Assembly: GCF_000739995.1 (NCBI RefSeq)
Contig: NZ_BBJX01000005.1
Coordinates: 310,001-374,000 of the forward strand
Length of the DNA stretch: 64,000 nt
Origin: Comamonas granuli NBRC 101663
GTDB lineage: Bacteria > Pseudomonadota > Gammaproteobacteria > Burkholderiales > Burkholderiaceae_C
Reading direction: 5' to 3'
How positions within the stretch are numbered: the first letter of the stretch is position 1; each line of letters starts with the position of its first letter. A model generated the notes under the pieces. The model did no database searches. It worked only from the letters and a program-made list of their open reading frames with translations, and was not told the origin of the DNA. The translations under genes and the position numbers were made by a program. Positions 10,985 to 53,601 of this stretch are shown in pieces.

Positions 10985-12367
10985 CTAGTCGGCCGGCAAA
11001 GACCTGGGGCTGCCAGGGGGGAGCGGCGCGGGCGGCGTGGCGCCGCGCAGCCGGTGGGCGGGGAAGGTGGCGCTGAATTCCGCTCCCTGGCCCGGCGTGC
11101 TCGCGATGCCCAGCACGGCCTCGTGGCGCTGCAGCACATGCTTGACGATGGCCAGGCCCAGGCCGGTGCCGCCCGTGTCGCGCGAGCGGCTGCGGTCCAC
11201 GCGGTAGAAGCGCTCGGTCAGGCGGGGCAGGTCTTCGGGGGCGATGCCGGCGCCGGTGTCGCGCACGGCAAAGCGCGCGCGCCCGTCCTCCAGCGGCTGC
11301 CATTGCACGGTGATGCTGCCGCCCGCGGGCGTGTAGCGCACGGCGTTGCCGATGAGGTTGGACAGCGCGCTGTGCAGCTCGGCCGGGTTGCCCGCGATCT
11401 CGCCGCAGGCGCGCTGGAAGTCCGCCGGGGGGAACTGCAGGTGCAGCGGCGGCGCGCCCGCGGGCGTGACCATGAGCGCGAGTACGCGCGCCTCCTCCTC
11501 GCAGCGCTGCAGCAGGCTGTGCACGCTGGTCCATGCGCCGTGCCCCGGCGGCGGGCTGCCTTCGAGGCGCGAGAGGGTGAGCAGGTCCTGCACCAGGTGC
11601 TGCATGCGCGTGGCCTGCTGCGCCATGAGGGCGAGGTAGCGCGCGCGCTCCTCGGCGTTCAGCGGCAGGGTCTGCAGGGTCTCGATGAAGCCCGCGAGCA
11701 CGGTGAGCGGCGTGCGGATCTCGTGCGAGACGTTGGCCACGAAGTCACGCCGCATGGCCTCGGCCTGCTCCAGGGCGGTGACGTCGCGCGAGAGCAGGAG
11801 CTTGCGCCCGTCGCCGTAGGGGTGCAGGCGCGCGGCGATGCGCACGGGCCGCGAGGGCGTGCTCTCGCGCCCGGTCAGCAGCACGTCGTGGTCATAGTCC
11901 TGCGCGGCCTGGTAGGCGCTGAAGCCGGGGTCGCGCAGCAGGTTGCCTATGGACTGCAGCAGGTCGCGCGCGGGGTCCAGCCCGAAATGGCTGGCCGCCA
12001 TCTGGTTGCACCATTCGATGCGGCCCTGGGCGTCGAGCAGGGTCACGCCGTTGGGCGAGGCCTGCAGCGCCGCCAGGATTTCCTGCAGGCGCGCGTCGCT
12101 GGCCTGTTCGCGCTGCTGGCTCTGGCGCAGCAGGCGGCGCATGCGGTCGGCCGCCTCGCCCCACAGGCCGTGCAGGCGCGGCGTGTGCGCCAGGTCGCCC
12201 GCGCGCAGCCAGGCCAGCACGCGGGCGCTGTTCCAGACTTCGCCCGCCCACCACAGCAGTGCGCCCGCGCTGGCGCCCGCCGCGCCCGCCCAGGGCCCGG
12301 CCAGCCACCAGCCGAGTGCGCCGCCCGCCCAGGGGAAGGCAAAGAAGATCAGGATTCGCAGCAGCAT
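10985..12367 (-). CDS. phoR: Phosphate regulon sensor histidine kinase PhoR
   Basis: 460 residues. Two N-terminal membrane segments (ILIFFAFPWAGGALGWWLAG and a second near 30-45) are followed by a PAS domain (about 95-185, ASPNGVTLLDAQGRIEWCN) and the HisKA box FVANVSHEIRTPLTVL with phospho-acceptor His215. The ATPase domain has N box NLIGNAVRYT, G1 DTGAGI and G2 GGTGLGLAIVKH. It phosphorylates PhoB under phosphate limitation and is normally restrained through Pst/PhoU. It is the last gene of the pst-phoU-phoBR run; a repeat separates it from phoB. Confidence 0.93.
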   Translation of the reverse strand: MLLRILIFFAFPWAGGALGWWLAGPWAGAAGASAGALLWWAGEVWNSARVLAWLRAGDLAHTPRLHGLWGEAADRMRRLLRQSQQREQASDARLQEILAALQASPNGVTLLDAQGRIEWCNQMAASHFGLDPARDLLQSIGNLLRDPGFSAYQAAQDYDHDVLLTGRESTPSRPVRIAARLHPYGDGRKLLLSRDVTALEQAEAMRRDFVANVSHEIRTPLTVLAGFIETLQTLPLNAEERARYLALMAQQATRMQHLVQDLLTLSRLEGSPPPGHGAWTSVHSLLQRCEEEARVLALMVTPAGAPPLHLQFPPADFQRACGEIAGNPAELHSALSNLIGNAVRYTPAGGSITVQWQPLEDGRARFAVRDTGAGIAPEDLPRLTERFYRVDRSRSRDTGGTGLGLAIVKHVLQRHEAVLGIASTPGQGAEFSATFPAHRLRGATPPAPLPPGSPRSLPAD

Positions 12368-12392: not shown

Positions 12393-12487
12393 TAGCTATT
12401 ATTTAGATAGCTGCTGGCGCTTTATGAATAAGGCTTTGCAAAAGAAATAATGCTGAATGGCTCTTGCAGAAAGCGCTGGAAGCTATT
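12393..12487. repeat. Interspersed repeat, copy 2 (two head-to-head units)
   Basis: The left unit reads AGCTATTATTTAGATAGCTG then CTGGCGCTT; the right unit ends AGCGCTGGAAGCTATTC, so it is the same element in the opposite orientation. The pair occupies the phoB-phoR gap, and the phoB TAG stop codon lies inside the right arm (GAATAGCT on the minus strand). Confidence 0.75.
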
Positions 12488-13208
12488 CTTTTGCTAGCGC
12501 TGCGCTCGCTGGCGCCGGCGCCGGCGCTGCCGTGAGGCGGTAGCCGGTGCCGCGCACCGTCTCGACCATGGTGCTGGCCGCGCCCAGGGCTTCGCGCAGG
12601 CGCTTGATGTGCACGTCCACCGTGCGCTCTTCGATGACCACATGGTCGCCCCAGACCCTGTCGAGCAGTTGCGTGCGGCTGTGCACGCGCTCGGCGTGCT
12701 TCATGAGGTAGTGCAGCAGCTTGAATTCCGTGGGTCCGAGCTTGAGCGGCTGGCCGGCGTGGCTCACGCGGTGCGTGGCGGCGTCGAGCTCCAGGGCGCC
12801 GATGGCGATGCGTTCGCTCGCCTGCTCGGGCGTGTGCCGGCGCAGCACGGCGCGGATGCGCGCGAGCAGCTCCTGCGTGGAGAAGGGCTTGGTGATGTAG
12901 TCGTCGGCACCGGCGTCCAGCCCGGCCACCTTGTCGGGCTCGTCGCCGCGCGCGGTGAGCATGAGGATGGGCACGCCCTTGCTGCGCGCGTCCTGGCGCC
13001 ACTTGCGTGCCAGTTGCAGGCCGCTCTGGCCGGGCAGCATCCAGTCGAGCAGGATGGCGTCGGGCAGCAGGGTGTCGAGTTCGCGCTGCGCGGCGTCGCC
13101 GTCCTCGGCCCAGATGGGCGTGAAGCCGTTGTGCCGCAGGTTCACGGCGACGAGCTCGGCGATGGCCGGTTCGTCCTCGACGATGAGGATGCGGGGTCGT
13201 TTCTTCAT
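12483..13208 (-). CDS. phoB: Phosphate regulon response regulator PhoB
   Basis: 241 residues, an OmpR-type regulator. The receiver domain has the acidic pocket E11/D12, phospho-acceptor Asp55 in ILLDWMLPG and the K in ITKPF. The winged-helix domain carries the DNA-recognition segment EERTVDVHIKRLREALG and the wing VRGTGYRL. It binds CTGTCAT direct repeats (Pho boxes), several of which are visible in this window. The last residues (LAKE) and the stop codon are encoded by an interspersed repeat, so the C-terminal tail is probably specific to this lineage. Confidence 0.95.
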   Translation of the reverse strand: MKKRPRILIVEDEPAIAELVAVNLRHNGFTPIWAEDGDAAQRELDTLLPDAILLDWMLPGQSGLQLARKWRQDARSKGVPILMLTARGDEPDKVAGLDAGADDYITKPFSTQELLARIRAVLRRHTPEQASERIAIGALELDAATHRVSHAGQPLKLGPTEFKLLHYLMKHAERVHSRTQLLDRVWGDHVVIEERTVDVHIKRLREALGAASTMVETVRGTGYRLTAAPAPAPASAALAKE

Positions 13209-13260: not shown

Positions 13261-13962
13261 TCATTGCACCACCGTCTCGATGTCGGCCAGCGCCTGGTGG
13301 CGCACGTCGCGCCCCTCGACCAGGTAGATGATGAGCTCGGCGATGTTCTTCGAGTGGTCGCCGATGCGTTCGATGGCCTTGGCCAGGAACAGCAGGTCCA
13401 GGCTGGCGGAGATGGTGCGCGGGTCTTCGACCATGTAGGTGATGAGCTTGCGCACGAAGCCGTCGAACTCGTGGTCGATCAGGTCGTCCTCCTTGAGGAT
13501 GTCCACCGCCGCCTTGGTGTCCAGCCGGGCGAAGGCGTCCAGCGCCTTGCGCAGCAGGCCCGAGGCCAGGTCGGCCGCCACGCGCAGGTCGCTGGTCGGC
13601 AGCGAGCGTGCGGCGCCGCTCTCGATGATGGAGCGCACCATGCGCGCCATGCGCGTGGCCTCGTCGCCCATGCGCTCGAGGTTGGCCGTGGCCTTGGAGA
13701 AGGCCATGAGCAGGCGCAGGTCGCGTGCCGTGGGCTGGCGCCGCGCAATGATGGTGGTGAGTTCGTGGTCGATCTCCACCTCCATGCTGTTGACGCGGCT
13801 CTCCAGCGTCTCCACCTGGGCGGCAGACTCCAGGCTGAACTGCGACAGCGCCTGGATGGCGTGGCGGATCTGCGACTCCACCAGCCCGCCCAGCTCCATG
13901 ACGCGGGCGGAGACGCTGTTGAGTTCGCTGTCGAATTGCGTGGAAAGGTGTTTGTCGGTCAT
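13261..13962 (-). CDS. phoU: Phosphate uptake regulator PhoU
   Basis: 233 residues made of two three-helix PhoU bundles, each with the metal-binding acidic motif (first [16 protein letters not shown], second [19 protein letters not shown]). PhoU links the Pst transporter to PhoR and silences the regulon when phosphate is sufficient. Start ATG 13962 overlaps the pstB stop as ATGA. It lies between pstB and phoB in the usual order. Confidence 0.95.
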
Positions 13963-17824: not shown

Positions 17825-17842
17825 GTGACATGCACGTGACAG
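17825..17842 (-). promoter_or_regulatory. Pho box and -10 of the pstS promoter
   Basis: On the minus strand CTGTCACGTGCATGTCAC shows two PhoB half-sites with the canonical 11-bp period. Exactly 10 bases further a TACAGT hexamer (17809-17814) serves as the -10, matching the known geometry of PhoB-activated promoters, where the Pho box replaces the -35. Confidence 0.88.
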
Positions 17843-17881: not shown

Positions 17882-17910
17882 GCGTCACCGACCTGTCACT
17901 GCCCTGTCAC
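17882..17910 (+). promoter_or_regulatory. Three tandem PhoB half-sites facing the binding-protein gene
   Basis: Half-sites GCGTCAC, CTGTCAC and CTGTCAC start at 17882, 17893 and 17904, an exact 11-bp period on the plus strand. The last two form a near-consensus box, CTGTCACTGCCCTGTCAC. Ten bases downstream is TAGTCT (17921-17926), a weak -10. The array therefore points at the divergent gene at 17960, not at pstS. Confidence 0.8.
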
Positions 17911-20742: not shown

Positions 20743-21202
20743 GAAAATCTGGCGCCATCACCGTGAGCAGCACGGTCTGGCTCTGGTCCATGCGCTGGCG
20801 CTGGCGCAGCCACCAGACCGCGCCCTTGCGGATGGCGCAGCCCGCCGGGTCCATGCCCAGCAACTGGGCGGCGGTCTGCCCGAGCAGCGGCTGGTGCCCG
20901 ACCACCAGCACTGCGCCGCGTGCGCGCGGCCATTGCACCAGTTCCAGCAGCTCGGCCGGCTGGCCGTGGGGCAGCAGCTCGGCGCGCAGCTTGAACTTGC
21001 GCCCCAGGGCCTGGGCCGTCTGTTCGGCGCGCCGGGCGGGGCTGCAGAGCACGCGCAGGCCGTCGGGCAACTGCTTTTCCAGCCAGGCGGACATGCGTGC
21101 GGCCTGCTTTTCGCCGCGTGCGGTGAGCGTGCGCGCCAGGTCGTCCTGGCCCTCGGCGCCCGGGTGCGCCTCGGCATGGCGCCACAGGATCAGGTCCATC
21201 AT
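20738..21202 (-). CDS. sixA: SixA-like phosphohistidine phosphatase
   Basis: 154 residues, histidine phosphatase superfamily. The catalytic RHAEAH is at residues 8-13 (His9) and the second catalytic His is in VLVVGHQPLLGQ. The small size and CSPARRAEQTAQALG match SixA, which dephosphorylates phosphohistidine on proteins such as HPt domains or PtsO/PtsP-type carriers. Its ATG overlaps the ppk stop as ATGA, so it is translationally coupled to polyphosphate kinase, an enzyme that works through a phosphohistidine intermediate. Confidence 0.88.
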   Translation of the reverse strand: MMDLILWRHAEAHPGAEGQDDLARTLTARGEKQAARMSAWLEKQLPDGLRVLCSPARRAEQTAQALGRKFKLRAELLPHGQPAELLELVQWPRARGAVLVVGHQPLLGQTAAQLLGMDPAGCAIRKGAVWWLRQRQRMDQSQTVLLTVMAPDFL

Positions 21203-23367
21203 GCCTTCCTCCGCTGGGTGGGTGCGGCAGCGGCCGGGCGGCGGTAGCGGGCCATCAGCGCCGCCTGGGCGCCCGCGCCGTCCAGCGGCCGGGCGGGGGG
21301 GCGGTAGCTGCCGTCGGGCTGCTGCGTCCAGGCGCCCTGCTCGTCGTGCAGGTAGGCGAGCAGGCATTCGTCGATGATGCGCTGGCGCAGGGCGGGGTCG
21401 GTCACCGGCCAGGCCAGTTCCACGCGGCGCAGCATGTTGCGGTTCATCCAGTCGGCGCTGGAGAGGTACAGGTCCTCCTGCTCCCCGGCGCCGAAGTAGA
21501 ACACGCGCGTGTGCTCCAGAAAGCGCCCGATGACCGAGCGCACGCGGATGCGCTCGGTCAGGCCGGGCTGCTGCGCGGGCAGGATGCAGGCGCCGCGCAC
21601 GATCAGGTCGATGCGCGCGCCCTGCTGGCCCGCACGCACCAGGGCGCGCACCAGGGCCTCGTCGGTCAGCGCGTTCATCTTGGCGACGATGCGTGCGTAC
21701 TGCCCGGCCTGCGCCGCCTGCCCGACCTGCTCGATCTTCTCCAGCAGGCGCTGGTGCAGGTGGAACGGGGCGAGCAGCAACTGGCGCAGCCGCGGCGGGC
21801 GGTTCTGGCTCGCCAGGTGGTTGAACACGCCGTCCATGTCGGCGGTGAGGTCCTCGCTGGCCGTGAAATAGCTCAGGTCGGTGTACAGGCGCGCCGTGCG
21901 CGGGTTGTAGTTGCCCGTGGACAGGTGGCCGTAGCGGCGCAGGCGCCGCCCCTCGCGCCGCGTGACGAGCAGCATCTTGGCGTGCGTCTTGAGGCTCACC
22001 ACGCCGTAGACGACCTGCGCGCCAATGGATTCCAGCGCCTCGGCCCAGTTGATGTTGGCCTCCTCGTCGAAACGCGCCTTGAGCTCGACCACGGCCATCA
22101 CCTCCTTGCCCTTGCGCACGGCCTCGCGCAGCAGGTCCATGAGCGCCGAGTCCGCGCCCGTGCGGTAGATGGTCTGCTTGATGGCGAGCACCTGCGGGTC
22201 GTTGACGGCTTCGCGCAGGAAGGCGAGCACCGCGTCGAAGCTCTCGAACGGCTGGTGCACGAGCACATCGCGTTCGCGCAACTGCGCCAGGAACGAGCGG
22301 CCCGGATCGACGGTGTGCGGCCAGGCGGGCTGCCAGGGCGGGAACAGCAGCGCCGGGTCGTCCACCAGCTCCACCAACTGGGCCAGGCGCACCAGGTTCA
22401 CCGGCCCGGGCACGCGAAACAGTGCGGCCGCCGGCAGGGCGAACTGCGCCTGCAGGAAGTCGGCGAGCAGGCGCGAGCAGTGCGCCGACACCTCCAGGCG
22501 CACGGCCTGGCCGAAATGGCGCTGCTGCAGGCCCTGGCGCAGCGCGGTGCGCAGGTTGTCCACGTCCTCCTCGTCCACGGCCAGGTCCGAGTGGCGCGTG
22601 ACGCGGAACTGCGAGAACTCCGTCACCTCGCGCCCGGGGAACAGGTCGTGCAGGTGTGCGCGCACCACGCTGGACAGGAGCACGAACATGGCGCCCTGCG
22701 GCGCCACGCGCGCGGGCATGCGGATCACGCGCGGCAGCGCGCGCGGCACGCGCACGATGGCGATCTCGTTGCTGCGGCCGAAGGCATCGGCGCCCTTGAG
22801 GCGCACGATGAAATTCAGCGACTTGTTGGCCACCAGCGGGAAGGGGTGGGCCGGGTCCAGCCCCACGGGCACGAGCAGCGGGCGCACCTCGCGCTGGAAG
22901 TAGTCCCTGACCCAGCGTCTCTGGGCACTGCTGCGCGCACCGTGCGAGACCACGCGCACGCCCTGCGCCGCAAAGGCGGGCACCAGCGCCTCGTTGTAGA
23001 GCGTGTACTGGCGCGCCACGAGGTCCTGGGCCTGGGCCATGAGCGCGGCAAACGCCGCAGCCTGCGGCCCGGGGCCGGCGGCTTCGCCCTGCGCGGCCGT
23101 GAGGCGCGGGGCCACGCGCACCTCGAAGAATTCGTCGAGGTTGGATGAAACGATGCACAGGTAGCGCAGGCGTTCGAGCAAGGGCACGTCGCTGCGCTGC
23201 GCCCAGTCGAAGACGCGCTCGTTGAAGGCGAGGATGCTGCGGTCGCGGTCGAGCAGCGGAGCGGCGGCCTGCGTCCCGGCGCCAGCGGGCACGGCCTGGG
23301 TGCCGGTGGGGAGCGGGGTGGGCGCAGCGTCTGCAGGCGAGGCCGGGGCAGGGGAGAAAGAAGGCAT
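21199..23367 (-). CDS. ppk: Polyphosphate kinase 1
   Basis: 722 residues from ATG 23367. The PPK1 domains run in order: N domain beginning LDRDRSILAFNERVFDWA and LRYLCIVSSNLDEFFEVR, head domain, and C1/C2 with ALIKQ-like AIKQTIYRTGADSALMDLL, the phosphohistidine region KTHAKMLLVTRREGRRLRRY, HLSTGNYNPRTARLYTDL and SADWMNRNMLRRVE. It polymerises ATP gamma-phosphate into polyphosphate at the membrane. A GTG at 23391 is in frame but coincides with the predicted transcription start, so I reject it. A near-consensus Pho box lies 44 bp upstream. It heads a two-gene operon with sixA. Confidence 0.95.
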   Translation of the reverse strand: MPSFSPAPASPADAAPTPLPTGTQAVPAGAGTQAAAPLLDRDRSILAFNERVFDWAQRSDVPLLERLRYLCIVSSNLDEFFEVRVAPRLTAAQGEAAGPGPQAAAFAALMAQAQDLVARQYTLYNEALVPAFAAQGVRVVSHGARSSAQRRWVRDYFQREVRPLLVPVGLDPAHPFPLVANKSLNFIVRLKGADAFGRSNEIAIVRVPRALPRVIRMPARVAPQGAMFVLLSSVVRAHLHDLFPGREVTEFSQFRVTRHSDLAVDEEDVDNLRTALRQGLQQRHFGQAVRLEVSAHCSRLLADFLQAQFALPAAALFRVPGPVNLVRLAQLVELVDDPALLFPPWQPAWPHTVDPGRSFLAQLRERDVLVHQPFESFDAVLAFLREAVNDPQVLAIKQTIYRTGADSALMDLLREAVRKGKEVMAVVELKARFDEEANINWAEALESIGAQVVYGVVSLKTHAKMLLVTRREGRRLRRYGHLSTGNYNPRTARLYTDLSYFTASEDLTADMDGVFNHLASQNRPPRLRQLLLAPFHLHQRLLEKIEQVGQAAQAGQYARIVAKMNALTDEALVRALVRAGQQGARIDLIVRGACILPAQQPGLTERIRVRSVIGRFLEHTRVFYFGAGEQEDLYLSSADWMNRNMLRRVELAWPVTDPALRQRIIDECLLAYLHDEQGAWTQQPDGSYRPPARPLDGAGAQAALMARYRRPAAAAPTQRRKA

Positions 23368-23410
23368 GGAATGGCTGCAGTGGGCAACCACCTCAGTATT
23401 TGGCGATTCG

Positions 23411-23428
23411 GTGACAGCGTGATGACAG
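23411..23428 (-). promoter_or_regulatory. Pho box of the ppk-sixA promoter
   Basis: Minus strand CTGTCATCACGCTGTCAC: two near-perfect PhoB half-sites spaced 11 bp. Ten bases downstream is AATACT (23395-23400 region) as a -10. The predicted transcription start near 23388 leaves a short ~20-base leader before ppk ATG 23367. Confidence 0.88.
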
Positions 23429-44881: not shown

Positions 44882-46495
44882 ATGAGCAAATCCACTGTCG
44901 TCGAACTGTTCGGCCGCCTCGAACAGCTCAACCGCATCGGCGCGGAACTCTCGCGCGAACGTGACATCGAGCGCCTGCTGGAGAACATCCTGGAGGCCGC
45001 CAAGGCCCTGACCGGCGCCGATGCCGGAACCCTCTACAGCACCACTGACGACGGCGGCGCGCTGCGCTTCGAGATCATGCGCACCGACTCGCTGGGCATA
45101 CGCCAGGGCGGCACCACGGGCCAGCGCGTGGGCCTGCCCGACCTGCCGCTGCGCCGCGCCGACGGCACGCCCAACGACCAGCTCGTGGCGGCCTATGCGG
45201 CCATCCATGAACGCACCGTCAACATCGCCGACGTGTACGACGAGGCGGGGTTCGACTTCTCCGGCACGCGCAGCTTCGACCAGCGCACCGGCTACCGCTC
45301 GCAGTCCTTCCTCACCGTGCCCATGAAGAACCATGAGGACGCGGTGATCGGCGTGCTGCAGCTCATCAACGCCATCGACCCCGAGAGCGGGCGGGTCGTG
45401 CCCTTCACGCGCGAGGACCAGAGCCTGACCGAGTCGCTCGCCTCGCAGGCGGCCATCGCGCTGAGCAACCGCCTGCTTATCTCCCAGCTCGAAACGCTGT
45501 TCGAGTCCTTCGTCAAGCTCATCAACGTCGCCATCGACGAAAAATCCCCCTACACCGGCGGCCACTGCGAGCGCGTGCCCACGCTCACCATGCTGCTGGC
45601 CGAGGCGGCCGACTCCACCGCCACCGGGCCGCTGGCGCACTTTCGCATGAGCGAGCGCGACCGCTACGAGCTGCAGATGGCAGGCCTGCTGCACGACTGC
45701 GGCAAGATCACCACGCCCGTGCACGTGGTCGACAAGGCCACCAAGCTGCAGACCATCTACGACCGCATCGGCCTGATCGACACGCGCTTCGAGGTGCTCA
45801 AGCGCGACGCCGAGATTGCCGCGCTGCGCGCGCAACTGGCGCTGCGCCCGGTGCAGGACGCCGGCGCCGAGGCCGCCGCCCAGGCCGCGCTGCACAGCGA
45901 GCTGCAGGGCCTGGAGGCGGACCGCGAGTTCCTGCGCCAGTGCAACCAGGGCAGCGAGGCCATGCAGCAGGCCGACCAGTTGCGCGTGCGCGTCATCGGC
46001 ACGCAGCGCCAGTGGCGCAACCCCGAGGGCCTGCAGACCAGCTTTCTGAGCGCCGAGGAGATGGAGAACCTGACCATCCGCTCGGGCACGCTCACCCAGG
46101 CCGAGCGCGACACCATCAACTACCACATCGTCGCCACCATCAAGATGCTGGAGACGCTGCCCTGGCCGCGCCACCTCAGGAACGTGCCCGAATACGCCGG
46201 CGGCCACCACGAGCGCATGGACGGCAAGGGCTACCCGCGCGGCCTCACGCGCGAGCAGATGTCCTGGCAGGCGCGCATGGTGGGCGTGGCCGACGTGTTC
46301 GAGGCCCTCACCGCCGCCGACCGGCCCTACAAGCGCGGCATGAAGCTGTCGCAGGCGCTGGGCATCATGCAGAAGATGGCGCGCACGGGCCATATCGACC
46401 CCGATCTGTTCGAGGTGTTCGTGCAGGGCAAGGTGTACCAGCGCTACGCCGAGCGCTTCCTCGACCCCGAGCAGATCGACGACGTGCGGCTCTGA
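44882..46495 (+). CDS. GAF domain / HD-GYP phosphodiesterase-like protein
   Basis: 537 residues, no membrane segments. Residues ~20-190 form a GAF sensor (RDIERLLENILEAAKALTGA ... LTVPMKNHEDAVIGVLQLIN). The HD-GYP module starts GGHCERVPTLTMLLAEAA, with metal-binding H271-D272 in GLLHDCGKI and the GYP part GGHHERMDGKGYPRGL at 440-454. HD-GYP enzymes hydrolyse cyclic di-GMP. Here HD and GYP are about 178 residues apart rather than the usual ~60, because of a charged, helical (coiled-coil-like) insert at about 300-385. It may bind a cyclic nucleotide or small ligand through GAF. Confidence 0.88.
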   Translation: MSKSTVVELFGRLEQLNRIGAELSRERDIERLLENILEAAKALTGADAGTLYSTTDDGGALRFEIMRTDSLGIRQGGTTGQRVGLPDLPLRRADGTPNDQLVAAYAAIHERTVNIADVYDEAGFDFSGTRSFDQRTGYRSQSFLTVPMKNHEDAVIGVLQLINAIDPESGRVVPFTREDQSLTESLASQAAIALSNRLLISQLETLFESFVKLINVAIDEKSPYTGGHCERVPTLTMLLAEAADSTATGPLAHFRMSERDRYELQMAGLLHDCGKITTPVHVVDKATKLQTIYDRIGLIDTRFEVLKRDAEIAALRAQLALRPVQDAGAEAAAQAALHSELQGLEADREFLRQCNQGSEAMQQADQLRVRVIGTQRQWRNPEGLQTSFLSAEEMENLTIRSGTLTQAERDTINYHIVATIKMLETLPWPRHLRNVPEYAGGHHERMDGKGYPRGLTREQMSWQARMVGVADVFEALTAADRPYKRGMKLSQALGIMQKMARTGHIDPDLFEVFVQGKVYQRYAERFLDPEQIDDVRL

Positions 46496-46518
46496 CGCGC
46501 TCCGGGCGCTGCGCGCGC

Positions 46519-46558
46519 CTGTCGCGGATCGGTCACGGGCCTGTCGCAGGCCCGTCAT
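46519..46558 (+). promoter_or_regulatory. Four tandem PhoB half-sites before the ornithine-lipid synthase gene
   Basis: CTGTCGC (46519), CGGTCAC (46530), CTGTCGC (46541) and CCGTCAT (46552) repeat with an exact 11-bp period. Each keeps the GTC core of the PhoB half-site (CTGTCAT). Ten bases after the last copy is CAGCAT, a poor -10. Spacing is more telling than any one half-site, since individual matches are imperfect. Confidence 0.72.
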
Positions 46559-46625
46559 GGCATGGCCTCAGCATGGCTGCAGTGCCGGAGAACCCCTCCG
46601 GCGCATGCACCTGGGAGTGAGCGCC

Positions 46626-48347
46626 ATGATCTCCGTGGACCAGATCGTCGACCTGCACCTGCCGCAACTGCAGCGGCATCCCTGGCTGAGCAAGGGCGTG
46701 CGCGGCATGCTGCGCCGCCTGCTGCACGAGCAGAGCTTTCGCCATTTCGCCCAGCAGTACCCGCACCTGGAGGGCTTTCCGTTCGTCGAGCAGGTGCTCG
46801 AGCATTTCGCCTTCAGCTACGCGGTGCGCGACAACGAGCGCGAGCGCATTCCGGCGCGCGGGCGCGTGGTCATCATTGCCAACCACCCCCTGGGCTCGCT
46901 CGACGGGCTGGCGCTGCTCAACCTGGTGGGCGGCATCCGCAGCGACGTGAAGATCGTCGCCAACGGCCTGCTGGCCAGCCTTGCGCCCCTCCAGCGCCTG
47001 CTGCTGCCGGTCACGGTGCTGGGCGGCCACAGCGGCGCGCGCCAGCTCAAGGCCATCCTGGAGCACCTGCGCGGCGAGGGGGCGGTCATCATCTTCCCGG
47101 CCGGCGAGGTCTCGCGCCTGCGGCCGGGCGGCGTGCGCGACGGGCGCTGGCACAGCGGCTTTCTGCGCCTGGCGGCGCAGACGCAGGCGCCCATCGTGCC
47201 CATCCACATCGACGGCCGCAACTCGGCCCTGTTCTACGGCGCCTCCCTGTGCTACAAGCCGCTGGCCACGCTGCTGCTGGTGCAGGAGATGTTCGGCCAG
47301 CACCGCAAGAGCGTTGCCCTGCGCATCGGCCACCCCATCCCGCACAGCAGCCACGGCGCCATGCCCTTGCCGGATGCGGCCAAGGCCAAGCTGTTCTGCA
47401 AGCACCTGTACCGGGTGGCGCAGGACAGGCCCGGCCTGCTGCACACCGAGACGGCCGTCGCCCATCCGGTGGACCGCAGCGCACTGGCCCAGGCCGTGGC
47501 CGCCTGCGCGCTGCTGGGGCAGACGCCGGACGGCAAGCGCATCCACCTGTTCCGCGGCGGGCTGGACTCGCCCGTGCTGCGCGAAGTGGGGCGGCTGCGC
47601 GAGCTCGCCTTCCGCGCCGTCGGCGAGGGCAGCGGCCGGCGCCGCGACCTGGACCGCTACGACCTGATCTACGACCACCTCATCCTGTGGGACCCCCAGG
47701 ATCTGGAGATCGTCGGCGCCTACCGCATGGTGCGCACGGCGGCGGTGGTGCAGGACCAGGGCGTGGAGGGGCTGTACACGCACAGCCTGTTCCATTTCGG
47801 CCCGCGCATGGTGCCGTACCTGCAGCAGGGGCTGGAGCTGGGCCGCTCCTTCGTGCAGCCGCGCTACTGGGGCCGCCGCTCGCTCGACTACCTGTGGTTC
47901 GGCATCGGCGCCTACGTGCGGCGCTATCCCGAGTGCCGCTACCTGTTCGGCCCGGTCTCGCTCTCGCGCGACATGCCCCAGGCGGCGCGCGACCTGCTGG
48001 TGCACCACTACCGCAGCCACTATGGCGAACCCGGCGTGGCCGAGGCCCGCCGCCCCTATGTGCCGGGCACCGATCTGGAGCCGGCGGCGAGCGGCGACAG
48101 CAGCGCGGATTTCGTGCGCCTCAAGCATCTGCTGGCGCACCTGGGCTGCAGCGTGCCCACGCTGTACAAGCAGTACACGGAAGTGGCCGAGCCGGGCGGC
48201 GTGCGCTTCCTGGACTTCGGCGTGGACCCGGATTTCAGCCACTGCGTCGACGGCCTGGTGCTGGTGGACGTGCAGCAGCTCAAGGCCCAGCGGCGCGAGC
48301 GCTACATCGGGCCCGCGGGCGCGGCGGGCGCGCTCACAGCCGCTTGA
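46626..48347 (+). CDS. OlsF-like bifunctional ornithine-lipid synthase (acyltransferase + GNAT)
   Basis: 573 residues. The N-terminal half is a PlsC-type acyltransferase: NHPLGSLDG at 86-94 (catalytic His87...Asp93), then IIFPAGEVSRLRPGG. The C-terminal half (about 290-570) is the hemolysin/OlsB-type N-acyltransferase: LREVGRLRELAFRAVGEGSG, DLDRYDLIYDHLILWD, EIVGAYRMV. This fusion and order match OlsF, which both N-acylates ornithine and adds the second acyl chain to make ornithine lipid, a phosphorus-free membrane lipid. ATG 46626 is chosen; the frame start at 46557 lies within the Pho box array. It overlaps the argA 3' end by 14 bp, tail to tail. Confidence 0.84.
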   Translation: MISVDQIVDLHLPQLQRHPWLSKGVRGMLRRLLHEQSFRHFAQQYPHLEGFPFVEQVLEHFAFSYAVRDNERERIPARGRVVIIANHPLGSLDGLALLNLVGGIRSDVKIVANGLLASLAPLQRLLLPVTVLGGHSGARQLKAILEHLRGEGAVIIFPAGEVSRLRPGGVRDGRWHSGFLRLAAQTQAPIVPIHIDGRNSALFYGASLCYKPLATLLLVQEMFGQHRKSVALRIGHPIPHSSHGAMPLPDAAKAKLFCKHLYRVAQDRPGLLHTETAVAHPVDRSALAQAVAACALLGQTPDGKRIHLFRGGLDSPVLREVGRLRELAFRAVGEGSGRRRDLDRYDLIYDHLILWDPQDLEIVGAYRMVRTAAVVQDQGVEGLYTHSLFHFGPRMVPYLQQGLELGRSFVQPRYWGRRSLDYLWFGIGAYVRRYPECRYLFGPVSLSRDMPQAARDLLVHHYRSHYGEPGVAEARRPYVPGTDLEPAASGDSSADFVRLKHLLAHLGCSVPTLYKQYTEVAEPGGVRFLDFGVDPDFSHCVDGLVLVDVQQLKAQRRERYIGPAGAAGALTAA

Positions 48348-52915: not shown

Positions 52916-53601
52916 GCGGCCGGCCCGGCGGTGTGCGGCGCTGGCGGCACCGGCACGAAATAGCCCACGCCGCGCACGGTCTGGACCAGGTCATTGCCCA
53001 GCTTGCGCCGCAGGTGGTGGATGTGCACCTCCAGCGCATTGCTCTCCAGCGCGTCGTCGAAACCGTACAGCGCCTCTTCCAGCCGCTGGCGGCTCACCAC
53101 CTGGCCGCTGGCGCGCAGCAGCACGAGCAGCAGGGCGAACTCCTTGGCGCGCAGGGCCACGGGCTGGCCGGCGCGCTGCACGGTGTGCGCCGCCGGGTGG
53201 ACTTCGATGTCGCCGTGGCGCAGCACGGGCGAGGCGCGCCCCTCGCTGCGGCGCAGGGCCACGCGCATGCGGGCGAGCAGTTCCCCCGGGTCGAAGGGCT
53301 TGACGATGTAGTCGTCCGCCCCTTCGTCCAGCCCGGCGATGCGCTCGGGCGGCGCATCGCGCGCCGTGAGGATGAGCACCGGCAGGTGCCGCCCCGCCTG
53401 GCGCAGGCGCCGCAGCCACTGCAGGCCGTCGCCATCGGGCAGGCCCAGGTCGAGCAGCACCATGTCGAAGCTCTCGACCTGCAGCGCCGCCCAGGCCGTG
53501 GCCAGGCTGGCACACGCATCCACGGCATAGCCCTCGCCCCGGAGCAGGGCGGTGAGGCCTTGGGCGATGCCTTCGTCGTCCTCGACCAACAGTATGCGCA
53601 T
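52912..53601 (-). CDS. OmpR-family response regulator, PmrA/QseB-like
   Basis: 229 residues. Receiver with acidic pocket ED at 7-8, phospho-acceptor Asp51 in VLLDLGLPDGDG and Lys in IVKPFDPGEL; then a winged helix with ESNALEVHIHHLRRKLG and VRGVGYFV. It likely activates the operon with the kinase and eptA. ATG 53601; divergent from hrpA with 79 bp between starts. Confidence 0.9.
   Translation of the reverse strand: MRILLVEDDEGIAQGLTALLRGEGYAVDACASLATAWAALQVESFDMVLLDLGLPDGDGLQWLRRLRQAGRHLPVLILTARDAPPERIAGLDEGADDYIVKPFDPGELLARMRVALRRSEGRASPVLRHGDIEVHPAAHTVQRAGQPVALRAKEFALLLVLLRASGQVVSRQRLEEALYGFDDALESNALEVHIHHLRRKLGNDLVQTVRGVGYFVPVPPAPHTAGPAA

Follow-up and report, generated by a model that had tools for sequence, protein, structure and literature searches.

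Results and discussion

The olsF locus and its upstream region

The window, by which we denote the whole stretch of 64,000 nucleotides of Comamonas granuli NBRC 101663 that was analysed, contains a gene for a bifunctional ornithine lipid synthase (olsF) preceded by four regularly spaced half-sites of PhoB type and a -10-like hexamer, and it also encodes PhoB and PhoR. The features used in this work are given below in coordinates of the window, together with strand and, where a model was used, score and cut-off.

10985..12367, minus strand: phoR, phosphate sensor kinase (TIGR02966, 371.1 bits, cut-off 334.2)
12483..13208, minus strand: phoB, presumed activator (TIGR02154, 330.2 bits, cut-off 296.2)
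13330-13899 (C30:323330-323899), minus strand: two PhoU domains (Pfam)
17825..17842, minus strand: two-unit PhoB-type box before pstS, CTGTCACGTGCATGTCAC, then 10 bp and TACAGT
17882..17910, plus strand: three-unit PhoB-type box in the pstS intergenic region, on the strand opposite to the pstS box, then 10 bp and TAGTCT
21199-23391, minus strand: ppk (PPK model)
23411..23428, minus strand: two-unit PhoB-type box before ppk, CTGTCATCACGCTGTCAC, then 10 bp and AATACT
46440..48340 (approximate), no strand: tract of operator and olsF, about 97% DNA identity to G249, a genome of another genus
46519..46558, plus strand: predicted PhoB-type operator, four half-sites with 11-bp period
46569..46574, plus strand: -10-like hexamer CAGCAT, exactly 10 bp after the last half-site
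46626..48347, plus strand: olsF, bifunctional ornithine lipid synthase, 573 aa (NF052615)

The gene at 46626 had been described as OlsF-like in a first-pass annotation made from the sequence, and the curated equivalog model NF052615 (NCBIfam) now identifies it as OlsF with 823 bits against a cut-off of 620, positions 1-561 of the protein aligning to positions 1-569 of the 570 of the model. Domain matches (PF19576 at 13-241, PF01553 at 68-195 and PF13444 at 324-424) correspond to an N-terminal acyltransferase domain fused to a C-terminal GNAT domain, and OlsF was the sole match to PF13444 found in this genome. An upstream ATG at 46557 was set aside as start codon: both the OlsF model, which fits from its position 1, and the relatives point to 46626. 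At its other end, the last 14 bases of olsF overlap the convergent argA ORF.

The upstream ORF ends at 46495, and the array lies between this point and the ATG of olsF, with 67 bp from the last half-site to the ATG. Its half-sites are CTGTCGC (46519-46525), CGGTCAC (46530-46536), CTGTCGC (46541-46547) and CCGTCAT (46552-46558), separated on the plus strand by GGAT, GGGC and AGGC, respectively. Direct reading confirms the four GTC-core heptamers at an exact 11-bp period upstream of ATG 46626 that had been reported previously, as well as their imperfection, each of the four having one mismatch to CTGTCAY.

In order to score such arrays, we assigned half-site weights manually according to the PhoB consensus and compared the highest-scoring set of four consecutive CTGTCAY-like units with 11-bp period to that of dinucleotide shuffles. 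None of 300 shuffles of the 200-bp upstream region of olsF in the window reached its score (p = 0.0033, the floor of the test). In the whole genome (3,505,986 bases), the olsF array is the one exact match to four copies of CNGTC at 11 bp; up to two mismatches yield two matches, namely the array and its own one-unit shift, compared to 27 for the reversed control pattern. The two-unit pattern with up to three mismatches occurs at 319 places in the genome versus 250 for its reversed control, and the genome-wide two-unit scan was dropped as too weak. In the window, two copies of CNGTC with one mismatch occur 60 times, which is rarer than the shuffle mean of 90. As the two-unit pattern is not rare on its own, it is the four-unit register, together with its conservation, that carries the evidence.

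Conservation of the array and phasing of the -10-like element

We collected 80 upstream regions of olsF of 200 bp each, consisting of 78 of the best 80 of 230 loci (L035 and L059 were excluded, their upstream sequence being too short), the window and G249. A significant four-unit array (p ≤ 0.05) was found in 63 of these 80 regions, and in a rerun based on 200 shuffles 61 of 79 regions were positive, one region containing N being skipped. Many of the regions are related and hence do not represent independent trials. Five control windows taken from the same loci passed the test in 7/77, 6/78, 9/80, 3/80 and 2/80 cases, and the wrong periods of 9, 10, 12 and 13 passed in 6, 2, 1 and 10 of 79 olsF regions, respectively; the first three control windows and period 13 exceed the expected 5%. 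The reverse strand of the olsF regions also passed more often than expected (17/79), possibly due to divergent PhoB-type boxes or to an effect of the score.

Conservation in close relatives, which the first-pass annotation had named beforehand as one of two observations on which its reading could fail, was found in all ten Comamonas-type relatives and in G249 (p ≤ 0.05 throughout). Within the clade of the window 12/12 regions pass, the match of L021 being weak (p = 0.037) and in a different register. In several other Comamonas-type relatives one unit of the array is poor. When the window was aligned with ten Comamonas-type upstream regions (L020-L027, L033, L042), mean column identity was 47%; the invariant columns include, within the GTC core, the C of units 1 and 2 and the G of unit 3, furthermore GTCA in unit 4, and A2, A5 and T6 of the hexamer CAGCAT.

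For the -10-like element we used the 52 of the 80 olsF regions that scored 22 or more for four units; their downstream sequence was not subject to selection. Mean unit scores in this set were 6.68, 6.14, 5.57 and 7.12, compared to 2.27 to 2.90 for the register positions on either side, so that the array is on average four units long, bearing in mind that choosing regions by four-unit score favours the inner positions and does not forbid further outer units. The pattern NANNNT (A2 and T6) is present at the 10-bp spacer in 49/52 of these arrays, and no other spacer from 2 to 23 exceeds 11/52. The value was 33/35 once similar arrays were collapsed, 11/28 in the lower-scoring olsF regions and 11/12 in the clade of the window. 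We regard this phasing as the strongest evidence for the array as part of a predicted promoter.

The array does not accompany every olsF. Among the 80 regions, again from the best 80 of 230 loci, 17 had no significant four-unit array in the shuffle test, and PhoB control is thus not universal for OlsF. Eight of the nine Shewanella rows belong here (L066, L069, L072, L073, L079, L082, L083 and L086); ornithine lipid in these eight may respond to another signal. The more distant OlsF genes of G151, G405 and G212, of the same family, showed no clear four-unit array, as judged from scores without shuffles, and a two-unit box followed at 10 bp by TACAGT precedes olsF in G151.

PhoB-type boxes elsewhere in the genome

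The genes pstS and ppk are classic PhoB targets. In the window, pstS, pstA and pstB lie on the minus strand (PstS, PstA and PstB models matched), and the boxes of pstS and ppk as well as the three-unit box have the same 10-bp spacing from box to hexamer as the olsF site. The three-unit box faces away from pstS and precedes a periplasmic binding protein gene (PF13458, 17960-19120). With an array in 63/80 olsF regions, a phased -10 element and both PhoB and PhoR encoded in the window, the PhoB control of olsF proposed in the first-pass annotation is a well supported prediction.

PhoB is one of nine PF00486 matches in the genome, another being at C30:362957-363169 (window 52957-53169). When PhoB was compared to solved structures, the matches were other regulators of the OmpR/PhoB family.

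Two further two-unit boxes were noticed outside the window. The first is a perfect PhoB-type box at L100 1501-1518 (G000:C27:152413-152430, minus strand). The second, with one mismatch, is at L103 1501-1518 (G000:C19:20370-20387, minus strand), in the start region of what appears by eye to be an arsR gene with an arsenate-reductase-like gene after it; this site might place arsenate handling under phosphate control.

Distribution of olsF and the tract common to another genus

Of the 26 genomes of the genus, the window's own yielded a full-length OlsF and the 25 mates none; 11 of the 26 genomes are less than 90% complete or more than 5% contaminated. Four mates gave weak matches to OlsF with 29-30% identity over the GNAT domain. 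At E ≤ 1e-50, OlsF was matched in 10 of 399 genomes sampled from the family, two of the ten matches being half-length only. In a quick tree, the window's OlsF, that of G249 and nine Comamonas-type proteins formed a clade of 11 with 100% SH-aLRT support, G151 being placed near this clade and G405 and G212 elsewhere. L042, whose frame ends after 319 residues, was omitted from the trees and its upstream region kept in the array analyses.

The OlsF of G249 is 98% identical to that of the window and lies between the same neighbours, and the proteins beside it are 68-92% identical (ArgA 90%, CysW 92%). In bins of 150 bp, DNA identity to G249 was 95-99% from 46500 to 48299, operator included, compared to 63-87% in the left flank and 77-95% in the right flank, excluding the two outermost bins at the alignment ends. 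In L020 and L022, which have other surroundings, similarity to the window extends from 46518 and 46516, respectively, that is from the first half-site, to 48313 and 48324. In three other loci similarity begins downstream of the whole array (L023 at 46564, L141 at 46610 and L142 at 46621).

The corresponding slot was located in several mates. A GAF-HD gene adjoins argA in G025, G018, G011 and G008 (L157, L159, L160 and L163) with 67-98 bp between matches, and in G002, G005, G007 and G021 the distance from the GAF-HD gene to argA on one contig is 2.0 to 4.5 kb. In G010 the slot measures 809 bp and holds a toxin-antitoxin pair of Phd/ParE type (L148 739-1475), which makes it seem that the slot takes different inserts. 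From these comparisons we infer that operator and olsF moved together and were acquired by this species through horizontal transfer.

OlsB-like genes in the genus

An OlsB-like protein was found in 13/25 genus mates. Its scores to NF052554 (149-175 bits) are below the cut-off of 350, so we call these proteins OlsB-like only. The window's genome contained no OlsB-like gene besides OlsF. In 10 of the 13 mates the OlsB-like gene is followed by ppk; the ppk of the window is preceded by a separate box and has no OlsB-like neighbour, tblastn with the protein of L190 matching the OlsF region only. In L187, which is not among these ten, an OlsA-like gene (133 bits, cut-off 300) overlaps the OlsB-like gene.

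The upstream regions of the OlsB-like genes had a significant four-unit score in 10/13 cases, and in 13/13 after the start codons of L200, L204 and L205, first taken far upstream, were corrected by extrapolation from the L190 protein, a correction made after the first result was known. NANNNT at the 10-bp spacer was present in 13/13. The first unit is poor in L193, L194 and L195, for which three units are the safer reading, and two units are poor in L201. Taken with the window's olsF, the OlsB-like genes of the 13 mates show that two different enzyme routes of one genus are preceded by operators of comparable layout. This suggests a pathway swap under one regulator, in which an OlsB-like gene would have been lost and olsF gained in this species.

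Comparison with known systems

Control of this type is already known, from a PhoB-dependent OlsF in Vibrio cholerae and from Pho boxes predicted before olsB. The V. cholerae olsF VC0489 is described as PhoBR-dependent (PMC12186959, citing Barbosa et al. 2018; also PMC13157583), and ornithine lipid under phosphate limitation is reported to need PhoB in this organism (PMC12186959). A second olsF is favoured by low salt (PMC12186959), so the regulation of OlsF differs between copies. The one-gene OlsF route and its link to PhoB, predicted in our case, are common to VC0489 and the window. On the other hand, V. cholerae is a gammaproteobacterium with two OlsF genes, whereas the window's gene belongs to a relative of Comamonas and lies on a tract common to another genus.

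Predicted Pho boxes before olsB are given for Burkholderia s.l. and Acinetobacter in PMC7814305 and PMC11828411. As in the window, an ornithine-lipid gene stands behind a predicted Pho box, but the route there is the two-protein OlsB/OlsA one, with no OlsF. As carriers of OlsF, the introduction of PMC7814305 names the CFB group and a few members of the gamma-, delta- and epsilonproteobacteria. For the pho box of Escherichia coli, PMC11828411 gives the consensus CTGTCATNNNNCTGTCAT. The 11-bp direct repeats and a -10 element at fixed distance are common to the E. coli promoters and the window, the latter differing in its four imperfect units and its GC-rich sequence. The distance to the -10 element in E. 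coli pho promoters is 10 bp.

In a literature search that left subscription journals mostly uncovered, we found no paper on olsF in Comamonadaceae or on ornithine lipid in Comamonas; for olsF and horizontal gene transfer it returned the V. cholerae vesicle work only, and the accessible parts of the papers held no description of a four-unit layout at olsF. What is added here to these systems is the evolutionary side, i.e. the tract common to another genus and the OlsB-like genes of the mates. These two points and the phasing of the -10 element are our additions to the first-pass annotation.

Interpretation and alternative explanations

The array, its conservation, the -10 phasing and the identities of OlsF, PhoB and PhoR are read from the sequence itself. 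PhoB binding, induction and the lipid product at olsF are what we infer from them, in the following form. Under phosphate limitation, PhoR would phosphorylate PhoB, both being encoded in the window. PhoB would then fill the four tandem half-sites, which amount to two consecutive pho boxes facing the same side of the helix, and recruit RNA polymerase to the -10 hexamer starting 10 bp downstream. The transcript would encode OlsF, whose C-terminal domain is expected to N-acylate ornithine and whose N-terminal domain to O-acylate the product, and the resulting ornithine lipid would take the place of phospholipid. Overall, we consider it very probable that 46519-46574 is a PhoB-activated promoter of olsF, serving ornithine lipid formation under phosphate limitation; operator and gene were probably acquired together.

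A chance origin of the repeats in GC-rich intergenic sequence may draw on the commonness of two-unit matches in the genome. The four-unit match is unique, and conservation and phasing are found across genera; together with the control windows this led us to reject chance, to which we attach a negligible probability. Another possibility is that a different OmpR/PhoB-type regulator, from among the eight further PF00486 proteins of this genome, binds the array in response to a different stress. The nine PF00486 matches supply candidates, and the low-salt preference reported for the second V. cholerae olsF agrees with this. But the half-sites and the 10-bp phasing match the pstS and ppk boxes of the same window, and comparable arrays, phased in the same way, precede the OlsB-like genes of the mates, so that we hold such a regulator to be highly unlikely compared to PhoB.

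The origin of the tract can also be read differently. If olsF and its operator were ancestral to both genera and lost in the mates, identity to G249 would reflect constraint with no recent transfer. The same neighbours in G249 and the fairly high identity of the right flank (0.77 to 0.95 per bin) agree with this, and with 11 of the 26 genomes incomplete or contaminated, a few of the absences could be gaps. Against it, an identity of about 97% extends over the non-coding operator, as opposed to 63-87% for the left flank and 77-95% for the right one; OlsF is 98% identical and its neighbours 68-92%; and none of 25 mates has full-length OlsF, the flanking genes being adjacent in four. Common ancestry followed by loss thus appears unlikely to us, and we retain joint acquisition of operator and gene. 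Whether the acquisition went further is a matter on which we lean slightly to one side: the four-unit operator, the phased -10 element and olsF would constitute a travelling cassette that replaced an older OlsB-like route behind a similar operator.

If so, enzymes would have been swapped and regulation kept, and a long tandem PhoB operator would be a selected feature of ornithine-lipid genes in two enzyme routes. The arrangement of four half-sites, 10 bp and NANNNT provides a testable promoter rule, which predicts where the one-gene ornithine-lipid route responds to phosphate starvation and where, as in 8/9 Shewanella rows, it may not. For the relatives of Comamonas, these results place OlsF behind a predicted promoter of PhoB type, and they would offer a natural example of a route for membrane remodelling that was seemingly exchanged with its regulator unchanged.
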